The notes beneath the pieces were generated by a model. It had not been told where the DNA came from, did no database searches, and saw only the letters and a list, made by a program, of their open reading frames with translations. Position numbers and translations under genes: made by a program. A stretch of 64,000 nucleotides of DNA from Pseudenterobacter timonensis (GTDB lineage: Bacteria; Pseudomonadota; Gammaproteobacteria; Enterobacterales; Enterobacteriaceae), in NCBI RefSeq assembly GCF_900021175.1, contig NZ_FCOP01000011.1, positions 992,001 to 1,056,000 of the forward strand, in the 5' to 3' direction. Numbering within the stretch: position 1 is the first letter of the stretch; each line of letters starts with the position of its first letter. Of this stretch, positions 7,434 through 64,000 are shown piece by piece.

Positions 7434-7470
7434 CACCCGGTCCCACGAGGGAGAGGGGCGGGGTGAGGGC
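7434..7470. repeat. Single degenerate copy of a GAGAGGG...GGTGAGGG repeat
   Basis: The sequence CACCCGGTCCCACGAGG then GAGAGGGGCGGGGTGAGGG resembles the outer ends of the tandem array at 62974-63580 (CCCTCACCC...ACCCTCTCCC and its complement). It is probably a scattered intergenic palindromic element of the same family. Confidence 0.5.
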
Positions 7471-38482: not shown

Positions 38483-38977
38483 TTACTGGGTGGTGCCGTC
38501 CGTTTTAGTGTTGACATCGGTATCGCCATTCACGGAACCGACTTTGTCATTGGTATCCGGGCAACGACCATCCTTGCACATGGTATTTTTGTGCATTTCT
38601 TCTGTGGACATATTGTCATGGTTCATGGTGCCAGTAGTGCCTGTCGCGCTGGTACCCGTAGTGCCGGTGGTGCCGGTAGCGCTGGTACCCGTAGTGCCGG
38701 TGGTGCCGGTAGCGCTGGTGCCGGTCGTAGAGTCAGTGCCGGTTGCGCTTGTCCCGGTGGTATTAGTATTGGTACTGCTTTTGTTAATATTGGTGCCATC
38801 AAGGTTATTTGGCGCAATATTCTCTTTCGCGCCAGGCGCCACCTGGCCCGCATCCGCAGCGGCGTTCGCCTGGCCGTTATTATCGGCTGAACCGGTGGTA
38901 TCGGCAGCCAGCGCGGCGCCGCTTGCCATGGTCAGAGTTGCTGTCAGGAAAAGGGTTGCCAGTTTAGTCATTTTCAT
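38483..38977 (-). CDS. ybgS: YbgS-like secreted protein with an expanded Thr/Gly repeat
   Basis: A probable periplasmic protein of unknown function. The start at 38977 ([20 protein letters not shown]) has an AGGAG ribosome site and a signal peptide ending AALA. The flanks match E. coli Ybg[21 protein letters not shown] before, and [13 protein letters not shown] and NTKTDGTTQ after. The middle carries a Thr/Gly/Ser-rich run with 11-residue repeats ([11 protein letters not shown]). This makes it 164 residues against 126 in E. coli. A longer upstream frame has no ribosome site. Confidence 0.9.
38646..38744. repeat. 33-bp tandem repeat in ybgS
   Basis: Two exact 33-base units (38646-38678, 38679-38711) and a diverged third (38712-38744), with further degenerate copies to about 38775. 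In-frame units encode [11 protein letters not shown]-type peptides. Confidence 0.85.
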
Positions 38978-60944: not shown

Positions 60945-62966
60945 ATGAGTAAACCGTTTAAATTAAATTCCGCCTTCCGTCCTTCCGGCGATCAGCCTGA
61001 GGCGATCCGCCGTCTGAAGGAGGGGCTGGAGGATGGGCTTGCTCACCAGACGCTGCTTGGCGTAACCGGTTCGGGCAAGACCTTTACCGTCGCCAATGTG
61101 ATTGCCGATCTGCAGCGCCCCACCATGGTGCTGGCGCCTAACAAAACCCTGGCGGCGCAGCTTTATGGCGAGATGAAGGCCTTCTTCCCGGACAACGCCG
61201 TCGAGTATTTCGTCTCTTACTACGATTACTACCAGCCGGAAGCGTACGTGCCGAGTTCAGACACCTTTATCGAGAAAGATGCCTCGGTAAACGAGCACAT
61301 CGAACAGATGCGTCTCTCCGCCACCAAGGCGCTGCTTGAGCGTCGGGATGTGGTGGTAGTCGCGTCGGTCTCCGCCATCTACGGCCTGGGCGACCCGGAT
61401 CTCTACCTGAAGATGATGCTGCACCTGACCAACGGTATGATTATCGACCAGCGCGCCATTCTGCGGCGGCTGGCGGAGCTGCAGTATACCCGTAACGATC
61501 AGGCGTTCCAGCGCGGCACATTCCGCGTGCGCGGCGAGGTGATCGACATCTTCCCGGCGGAGTCGGACGACCTGGCGCTGCGCGTGGAGCTTTTTGACGA
61601 GGAGGTTGAACGGCTGTCGCTTTTCGACCCCCTGACCGGCCACGTGGAATCGACCGTCCAGCGCTTTACCATCTACCCGAAAACCCACTACGTCACGCCG
61701 CGCGAGCGCATTGTACAGGCGATGGAGGAGATCAAGGTGGAGCTGGCCGAGCGGCGCAAGGTGCTGCTGGCGAACAACAAGCTGCTGGAAGAGCAGCGTC
61801 TGACCCAGCGCACGCAGTTCGACCTGGAGATGATGAACGAGCTGGGCTACTGCTCCGGGATCGAAAACTACTCCCGTTATCTCTCCGGGCGTGGCCCTGG
61901 CGAAGCGCCGCCAACGCTCTTTGACTACCTGCCCGCCGACGGCCTGCTGGTGATCGATGAATCTCACGTGACGATCCCGCAGATCGGCGGAATGTACCGC
62001 GGCGACCGGGCGCGTAAAGAGACGCTGGTGGAGTACGGTTTCCGTCTGCCGTCCGCGCTGGACAACCGTCCGATGAAGTTTGAGGAGTTCGAGGCGCTGG
62101 CCCCGCAGACCATCTACGTCTCGGCGACCCCGGGCAACTACGAGCTAGAGAAATCGGGCGACGAGGTGATCGATCAGGTGGTACGTCCTACCGGCCTGCT
62201 CGACCCGATTATCGAGGTCCGCCCGGTGGCGACCCAGGTGGACGATCTTCTGTCGGAAATCCGCATCCGCTCGGCGATCAACGAGCGCGTGCTGGTGACG
62301 ACGCTGACCAAGCGCATGGCGGAAGATCTGACCGAATATCTGGAGGAGCACGGGGAGCGGGTGCGCTATCTGCACTCCGATATCGACACCGTGGAGCGAA
62401 TGGAGATCATTCGCGACCTGCGCCTGGGCGAGTTCGACGTGCTGGTGGGCATCAACCTGTTGCGGGAAGGGCTCGACATGCCGGAAGTCTCGCTGGTGGC
62501 GATTCTGGACGCCGACAAAGAGGGCTTTTTGCGCTCCGAGCGTTCGCTGATTCAGACCATCGGCCGCGCCGCGCGTAACGTGAACGGCAAGGCGATTTTG
62601 TATGGCGATAAAATCACCCCGTCAATGGCCAAAGCGATTGGCGAGACGGAACGCCGTCGTGAGAAACAGCAGCGCTACAACGAAGAACACGGCATTACCC
62701 CGCAGGGGCTGAACAAGAAAGTGGTCGATATTCTGTCGCTGGGCGAGAATATCGCCAAAACCAAAGCGAAGGGTCGCGGCAAGTCACGTTCTCCGGTAGA
62801 GGCGGATACCGCCGCGCTGCCGCTGACGCCGAAAGCGCTGCAGCAGAAAATCCACGAACTGGAAGGGAAGATGATGGAGCATGCGCAGAACCTGGAGTTC
62901 GAGGAGGCGGCGCAGATCCGCGACCAGCTGCATCAGCTGCGCGAGCTGTTTATTGCGGCGTCGTGA
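60945..62966 (+). CDS. uvrB: Excinuclease ABC subunit B
   Basis: The damage-verifying helicase of nucleotide excision repair; it receives DNA from UvrA and recruits UvrC. The 673 residues equal E. coli. Walker A GVTGSGKT is at residues 39-46. The beta-hairpin ([20 protein letters not shown]) is at about 92-111. Helicase motifs include [12 protein letters not shown] and [21 protein letters not shown]-terminal UVR motif ([20 protein letters not shown]) binds UvrA and UvrC. Confidence 0.98.
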
Positions 62967-62973
62967 CGGGTTA

Positions 62974-63580
62974 CCCCTCACCCTAACCCTCTCCCCAAAG
63001 GGGAGAGGGGACAGTCCCAGCACGGACCAGCCTCAGGAGTACCATTCAGGGAAAGACCGCTTTTCCCCCTCTCCCCAAAGGGGAGAGGGGACAGTCCCAG
63101 CGCGGATCAGCCTCAGGAGTACCGTTCAGGGAAAGATCGCTTTTCCCCCTCTCCCAAACGGGAGAGGAGGCAGCCCCAGCGCGGACCAGCCTCAGGAGTA
63201 CCGTTCAGGGAAAGACCGCTTTTCCTCCTCTCCCCAAAGGGGAGAGGGGACAGCCCCAGCGCGGAGCAGCCTCAGGAGTACCGTTCAGGGAAAGACCGCT
63301 TTTCCCCCTCTCCCCAAACGGGAGAGGAGGCAGCCCCAGCGCGGACCAGCCTCAGGAGTACCGTTCAGGGAAAAACCGCTTTTCTCCTCTCCCCAAAGGG
63401 GAGAGGGGACAGTCCCAGCGCGGATCAGCCTCAGGAGTACCGTTCACGGAAAGACCGCTTTTCCCCCTCTCCCAAAGGGGAGAGGAGACAATCCCAGCAC
63501 GGAGCAGCCTCAGGAGTACCGTTCAGGGAAAAACCGCTTTTCCCCCTCTCCCCTTTGGGGAGAGGGTCGGGGTGAGGGGC
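62974..63580. repeat. 80-bp tandem repeat array between uvrB and ybhK
   Basis: The core CTCTCCCC-AAA-GGGGAGAG recurs at 62989, 63069, 63149, 63228, 63308, 63387, 63467 and 63546, a period of 79-80 bases. Between cores each unit carries CAGCCTCAGGAGTACCGTTC and GGGAAAGACCGCTTTT with few changes. The outer ends are inverted: CCCCTCACCCTAACCCTC on the left and GAGGGTCGGGGTGAGGGG on the right. It starts 8 bases after the uvrB stop and ends 8 bases before the ybhK stop, filling the convergent gap. Each core can fold as a hairpin on either strand. It is not a CRISPR: the spacers are themselves repeated. Confidence 0.93.
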
Positions 63581-63587
63581 GCGTTTC

Positions 63588-64000
63588 TCAACCCAGCTTC
63601 TGTATCGCTTTCTCCAGCGCTTCGCGCAGCAGGTGGCGGTCATGACGGTACTGGATGTCGCTCGCTTCCAGCGGCTCCTGCACCACCACTCGTCCTTCCA
63701 TGCCGGTCACATTCACTTTCGGCCCCACGACCACTGCGTCGATAATCTTTTTGCCCACGTACTGTTCCATCAGGTTCAGCTTGTCAGACAGCGACAGGCT
63801 GGCGGCGGCGGGGCTTAGTTCGCGGCCCAGATTACCGATATAGACCACCGGCGCGGGAGTTCTGCGCAGCGCCTGCGCCAGCTCCTTAACCAGCAGAAGC
63901 GGCATCAGGCTGGTGTAAAAGCTCCCGGGACCGATCAGGATCAGATCCGCCTCGCCGATCGCTTCCACCGCTTCACGCGTGGCGGCCACTGCCGGGGAGA
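63588..64000 (-). CDS. ybhK: YbhK/YvcK-family (CofD-like) protein, C-terminal part
   Basis: The frame enters from the right edge and ends at TGA 63588, showing about 137 C-terminal residues of roughly 302. The family signature [20 protein letters not shown] and [13 protein letters not shown] is clear, and the end [20 protein letters not shown] matches E. coli YbhK. Family members (YvcK/GlmR) bind UDP-sugars or resemble the 2-phospho-L-lactate transferase fold. YvcK affects carbon metabolism and cell shape in Bacillus; the enteric role is not established. It converges with uvrB. Confidence 0.93.

Follow-up and report, generated by a model that had tools for sequence, protein, structure and literature searches.

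The closest described relatives of the element analysed here are the G/C-rich intrastrand-triplex motifs (TMs), also termed TMECO or PIT, which consist of a hairpin and an adjacent third strand and occur as two types, A (linker TTA) and B (linker CCG) (Holder et al. 2015, PMC4666352). According to the parts of that paper available to us, Escherichia coli K-12 carries five close inverted pairs, each composed of one A and one B motif, and the motif count of Enterobacter asburiae LF7a amounts to 143. The triplex was seen in vitro with the single-stranded E. coli motif, and neither as a duplex nor by in vivo footprinting. TM loci are tied there to instability in E. coli, by a mechanism termed unclear; the same parts assign the E. 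coli motifs no consistent position or gene class, and cite an earlier study in which the motifs lacked promoter or terminator activity.

The window, a stretch of 64,000 nucleotides from Pseudenterobacter timonensis, contains a tandem array in the gap between uvrB and ybhK that shares several traits with this family: both of its ends fit the motif, an A copy is paired in inverted orientation with a B copy, the site is intergenic, many copies are found in Enterobacter, and local instability has been linked to such loci (PMC4666352, as far as available). The two differ in that four of the five K-12 pairs have their arms inward, whereas the arms of the window pair point outward. Moreover, the available text of PMC4666352 covers pairs, mutation and deletion, whereas tandem interiors with armless cores are a feature of the window.

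Three further groups of repeats invite comparison, each on the basis of the accessible parts of the respective reports. The palindromic repeat CCCTCTCCCXX(X)GGGAGAGGG of Enterobacter sp. 638 (PMC2869309) has a core identical to that of the window and is present in 100 copies, often duplicated or triplicated at the 3' ends of genes; yet, as described, it is devoid of arms, A/B types or spacer amplification. The pneumococcal BOX element, boxA-(boxB)n-boxC (PMC3049150), likewise retains two unlike ends once each around a tandem interior of variable number and is dispersed through the genome. Its boxB is a module common to all loci, whereas here each locus has a private spacer and shares the core only; the likeness drawn here is one of architecture. 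Finally, REP/BIME elements and REPINs with their RAYT transposases (PMC3733652, PMC3116915) are intergenic too and have palindromes both in inverted pairs and in tandem clusters; their arrays repeat whole REPs, in contrast to the armless cores of the window, and inspection by eye found no GTAG tetranucleotide beside the cores of the window array. Fixed unlike ends enclosing a variable tandem interior, the hallmark of the BOX design, are found across loci of the P. timonensis genome. The window element is a TM pair with an amplified, BOX-like interior, one of many in its genome, and the kind of element as such has been published. A search of mainly open literature, including the available part of PMC12306157, retrieved no account of a TM pair whose interior is tandemly repeated, which is weak evidence of absence.

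Anatomy of the uvrB-ybhK array

The element comprises 604 bp (62975-63578) and occupies the whole gap between the convergent genes uvrB and ybhK (Table 1). The stop codons lie at 62966 and, on the other strand, at 63588; the genes are thus separated from the element by 8 and 9 bases. Tandem Repeats Finder (TRF) reports a period of 80, 7.3 copies and 90% matches with a score of 950, and a 159-bp period scores slightly higher (978), suggesting that part of the growth may have proceeded by two units at once. Cutting at the cores yields units of 80, 80, 79, 80, 79, 80 and 79 bp, followed by an eighth core, in agreement with the seven units and eight hairpin cores counted initially; the seven units differ from each other at 2-13 aligned positions. 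The left end reads CCCTCACCC-TAA-core and the right end core-TCG-GGGTGAGGG, with seven spacers and six more cores inside. Accordingly, the tandem array corresponds to bases 13 to 592 of the element and omits precisely one arm and linker on each side.

Table 1. Positions of the genes, outer motifs and repeated parts at the uvrB-ybhK locus of the window.
Feature	Position	Strand	Basis
uvrB, 673 aa	60945..62966	+	94% identity to E. coli K-12 UvrB over 673 aa; NCBIfam TIGR00631 above cut-off; stops 8 bp short of element
Left outer TM, type A (linker TTA)	62975..63009	-	Arm 62975-62983, linker 62984-62986, core 62987-63009; TM definition from available part of PMC4666352
Tandem array, 7 units of 79-80 bp (core + spacer) and eighth core, outer arms excluded	62987..63566		TRF, unit splitting
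First of seven locus-specific spacers, 57 bp	63010..63066		Spacer 27-mer matches confined to window array
Stretch with the six internal armless cores	63067..63489		CCTCTCCC starts at 63068, 63148, 63227, 63307, 63386, 63466
Right outer TM, type B (linker TCG)	63544..63578	+	Core 63544-63566, arm 63570-63578; Table 1 of PMC4666352, as far as available, has TCG copies under type B
ybhK, 3' part, leaves window	63588..64000	-	Open frame; partial TIGR01826 match; E. coli K-12 gene order uvrB-ybhK

Both outer ends fit the expression CCCTCNCCC N3-6 GGGNGAGGG N3 GGGNGAGGG, searched with a loop of 2-7 and at most three substitutions. The inverted arms carry the linkers TTA on the left (minus strand) and TCG on the right (plus strand), which is an inverted A/B pairing. 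Judged by sequence, the ends are two copies of the published TM repeat, type A on the left and type B on the right, with their arms outward. The inverted ends of the initial annotation are thus confirmed and correspond to the third strands of the TMs, which are missing beside the hairpins of all six inner cores. These inner cores share the AAA-type loop of the left TM, and the right TM has a TTT loop.

The arm plus half-core pattern matches the window three times at up to two mismatches, all three matches being exact, and is absent from 100 dinucleotide shuffles of the window. The third match is a lone arm and half-core with a decayed hairpin (7449-7469), located just behind a terminator-like hairpin; the same order is seen in the uvrB-ybhK gaps of several relatives. 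The whole genome contains 77 + 85 = 162 arm-plus-core sites at no more than one mismatch, versus none for a reversed control pattern, and the number of such sites per genome ranges from 6 to 264 across 61 genomes of the genus. The spacer, on the other hand, is private: a 27-mer from it, allowing three mismatches, matches the genome seven times, always within the window array. The ends of the element belong to the published TM/PIT family, and its architecture recurs.

The RNAs of both strands are predicted to fold far more stably than shuffled sequences (z -13.0 and -11.6; 20 shuffles each), and in both predicted folds the two ends of the element pair with each other. An Rfam scan of the window gave nine matches at the gathering score, none of them in the array. 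The ybhK fragment, of which the window holds just 136 aa, matches TIGR01826 (YvcK/CofD-related) with E 6e-32, under the whole-protein cut-off. Elsewhere in the window, 33-bp tandem repeats at 38628-38762 lie within a minus-strand open frame of 209 aa and would encode peptide repeats.

Similar arrays in the genome and the genus

Sixty TM clusters of the P. timonensis genome were examined, namely the window locus and those on 59 stretches picked from 100 listed places out of 162 and from the listed part of 231 matches (one stretch, L239, has no full TM, and another, L186, has two clusters). Arms-out pairs with exactly two full TMs account for 37 clusters, and the others are 12 single TMs, seven arms-out clusters with repeated armed TMs and four clusters with several TMs on one strand only. 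TRF detects a tandem interior in 25 of the 37 pairs and none in 12; a long pair is thus not always an array. The array at L238 (640 bp, 6.2 copies of 99 bp) is even larger than that of the window. When the cores are masked and all 37 interiors compared with one another, merely three pairs are similar at E 1e-3, none of which involves the window. The architecture recurs in the genome with largely unrelated, locus-specific spacers. Weak preferences are visible at the spacer edges, AC.G..CGG next to the A core and GAAAA next to the B core. Short pairs of some relatives have spacers like GACTGCTCGGTGCGGTTTTC, and by eye the window spacer resembles this sequence with extra middle sequence.

Compact dispersed arms-out pairs are found in 53 of the 61 genus genomes and measure 74-92 bp at the places listed. 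Long pairs are a different matter: 27 of the 31 exact arm pairs listed for P. timonensis are more than 95 bp apart, versus none of 6 in G025 and none of 15 in G037 (Fisher P 6.6e-11, where pairs within one genome are not strictly independent and a long pair need not be an array). This comparison rests on exact arms in pairs of at most 700 bp, collected manually among the matches listed; the window array lies outside the listing of its own genome, and a one-mismatch pair of G037 (74 bp) as well as the genome G001 were left out. Since pairs 41-71 bp apart number four in the whole P. timonensis genome (0 to 36 across the genus), which is above the number listed, the true share of long pairs must be somewhat under 27/31.

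Beyond counts, the excess of arrays was examined in just four relatives. The complete genomes G025 and G037 contain short pairs only, and the matches listed for G002 and G003 include pairs of 24-89 bp. G001 possesses milder arrays: its seven listed pairs span 621, 288, 281, 163, 119, 117 and 59 bp, and eight of its stretches include armless tandem interiors (L249, L251, L252), a degenerate one (L250) and otherwise armed or mixed arrays. As G001 also has some tandem interiors, the excess in P. timonensis is a matter of degree. A strict three-core pattern is found in four of the 61 genomes, P. timonensis included; some of its matches are armed arrays, and the window array itself is missed, because the pattern allows no mismatch and is too strict. 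A search of plasmids with the whole array retrieved 77 records; coverage of the query in the 20 listed does not exceed 14% and is confined to its ends. SbcC and SbcD are encoded side by side, both above the NCBIfam cut-offs and free of stops; loss of this hairpin nuclease thus does not account for the excess of arrays in this genome.

The uvrB-ybhK gap was obtained from 56 of the 61 genus genomes, P. timonensis included; a ybhK match was lacking in L104, L109, L118 and L144, and in G041 the contig ends there. The gap measures 42 to 865 bp. According to a heuristic scan with overlapping categories, a TM or TM core is present in 39 gaps, a REP-like palindrome in 16 and a terminator-like hairpin in 13, and three gaps have none of these. 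Independent arrays are found in two genomes, where they lie downstream of a terminator-like hairpin and consist of whole, armed type-B TMs on the same strand with a period of about 56, ten in G051 (L137) and six in G015 (L142). The gap is thus a recurrent target of such elements. Inspection by eye found the window spacer in no relative's gap. Among 14 named relatives, six yielded the gap, in which the scan detected no TM, and eight were without a ybhK match at the locus.

In seven of the gaps (L101, L102, L103, L110, L123, L130, L140) a TM core is split by an insert some 430 bp long that itself has a TM close to one end. Similar sequence occurs in L108 and L153 as well as at another locus in L218, and by eye the insert, present in several species and at a second site, looks like a dispersed element. 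Rfam gave no match in the five relatives' loci scanned, including four with the insert (L101, L103, L108, L153). In L118 (G026), the 1.5-kb flank after uvrB has no ybhK match although the contig continues; this gap may hold a larger insert.

Proposed growth of the array and rival explanations

What the sequence shows is how the element is built, to which family its ends belong, that its spacer is confined to this locus and that other loci have similar outcomes; from this we infer the recombination steps by which the array would have grown. It was most probably generated by amplification of "spacer plus core" between the direct-repeat cores of an arms-out TM pair, in keeping with the initial proposal of a palindromic element amplified between its two arms, which the similar outcomes at other loci of the genome support. 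The putative ancestor would have been a single arms-out pair, A on the left and B on the right, around one spacer between uvrB and ybhK, each TM consisting of an arm, a 3-nt linker and a palindromic core. Leaving the loop aside, each core reads the same on both strands, and the two cores of an inverted pair are therefore direct repeats of one another as well, with about 10 bp per half-stem and a spacing of roughly one unit. A spacer and a core could be duplicated between these two cores by slippage, where single strands form hairpins, or by unequal exchange, and subsequent rounds could be driven by the 80-bp homology. The inner cores would be chimeras, still capable of forming hairpins but missing the third strand. 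The arms are found once at each end because they lie outside the repeated part, such that recombination or slippage from core to core would copy the spacer and the core only. This combination of one arm per end with a repeated spacer-plus-core unit points to recombination between cores, an amplification opposite to deletion.

The borders expected from such growth coincide exactly with those of the window array. Among all 25 tandem interiors, 15 start 11-15 bases into the element, 14 end 10-14 bases before its end and 11 do both; the remaining 14 miss at one or both ends, hence do not run exactly from core to core, and some of their units are not bounded by cores. The loops of the inner cores, expected to derive from a single end, conform in the window (six of six of the left type) and in L238 (five of five matching the left end), and deviate in L163, where they match neither end, and in L183, where they alternate. 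With 25 such interiors and private spacers in one genome, the mechanism and its rate are testable. The window locus illustrates clearly how repeats of this type can expand, and the arrays may supply VNTR markers for the species.

The most serious rival is a selected function, whereby the array would be maintained as a hairpin barrier that acts in both directions on the 3' ends of the two convergent genes, replacing a terminator and with its copy number tuned. Nothing resembling a promoter or a terminator was found inside the array by a simple scan, which fits an array that stands in for a terminator; on the transcription barrier suggested initially, the available part of PMC4666352 cites a lack of promoter or terminator activity. 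At least one of the three kinds of sequence scanned for is present in 53 of the 56 genus gaps, P. timonensis included (heuristic scan). Moreover, where flanking gene orientation could be called, from the longest open frames instead of annotation and for 40 of the 60 clusters, convergent settings outnumber divergent ones (16 versus 5; binomial P 0.027), and in nine of the 16 convergent cases the cluster comes within 20 bp of the frame end on either side. Yet the other 19 clusters reside in tandem gaps, and thus the TM element is not restricted to 3'-3' gaps; many relatives make do with a single TM between uvrB and ybhK, and the E. coli motifs have no consistent position or gene class (PMC4666352, as far as available). 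Taken together, a selected barrier is rather unlikely. As to the protein-binding array likewise suggested initially, IHF, the one consensus scanned, has no site at up to one mismatch in 62967-63587.

REP elements provide hairpin 3' ends that survive exonucleases. By analogy, our guess is that the array most likely has a mild effect, by giving the uvrB and ybhK mRNAs a hairpin 3' end that resists nucleases, and that failing this it is neutral.

Repeated transposition, in which new TMs inserted into old ones and were moved by a REP-type (Y1/HUH) transposase, is improbable. The wide dispersal of compact arms-out pairs in the genus and the 430-bp insert that splits TMs in relatives are compatible with mobility, but one locus-specific spacer is common to all units of the window array. 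A profile search for the Y1 transposase (PF01797) was negative in the P. timonensis genome and positive for the E. coli control; the family occurs in eight of the 61 genus genomes, and 15 Y1 loci are without a TM in flanks of up to 1.5 kb. RAYT losses are known in other E. coli-like cases (PMC3733652, available part), and hence the missing Y1 gene alone does not decide against a BIME/REP relationship; in combination with the TM-free flanks it led us to reject RAYT-driven spread.

Expansion or misjoining of a shorter array by the assembler is more improbable still. The genome is a draft of 13 contigs and 607 bp exceed the length of short reads, but each of the seven units has distinct variants, the array lies deep within a 1.49-Mb contig, and similar arrays with other spacers exist elsewhere in the same genome and in G001. 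A coding repeat can be practically dismissed: a 254-aa frame (62881-63645, plus strand) in the list of open frames does traverse the array, but it begins inside uvrB out of frame, the 79- and 80-bp units shift the frame from copy to copy, and the spacer is absent by eye from the gaps of relatives.

Amplification between cores could also be extended to a general rule. Inverted TM pairs might act as expansion cassettes, in which any interior is amplifiable via the cores as direct repeats. In this species the process would have run genome-wide and produced numerous BOX-like arrays, independent of each other and each with its private spacer; such a natural VNTR system, frequently located at the 3' ends of genes, would be driven by a replication or repair difference other than loss of SbcCD. 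This generalization is tentative and, on balance, doubtful. The E. coli lldD-trmL locus, where six alleles including MG1655 were aligned, provides a comparison. In one allele (L224) the stretch between GAGGGGA in the A stem and GAGGGGA in the B arm is lost, in another (L225) 12 bp of B are lost, and the gap of strain CFT073 (L227) is free of TMs; the contractions are events opposite to the amplification in the window, and the loss in L224 speaks for the growth proposed above. The spans in 60 listed out of 5,370 matching genomes are 420 (14 genomes, as in MG1655), 408 (16), 376 (8) and 326 (1), with 21 partial rows, which might conceal an expansion; none is seen among the 60, and this counts against generality in E. 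coli. In a further lldD-trmL allele (L223), an unrelated inverted repeat whose arms are 14 bp long stands in place of part of the TM pair, and eight of the 60 listed rows have an equal span.
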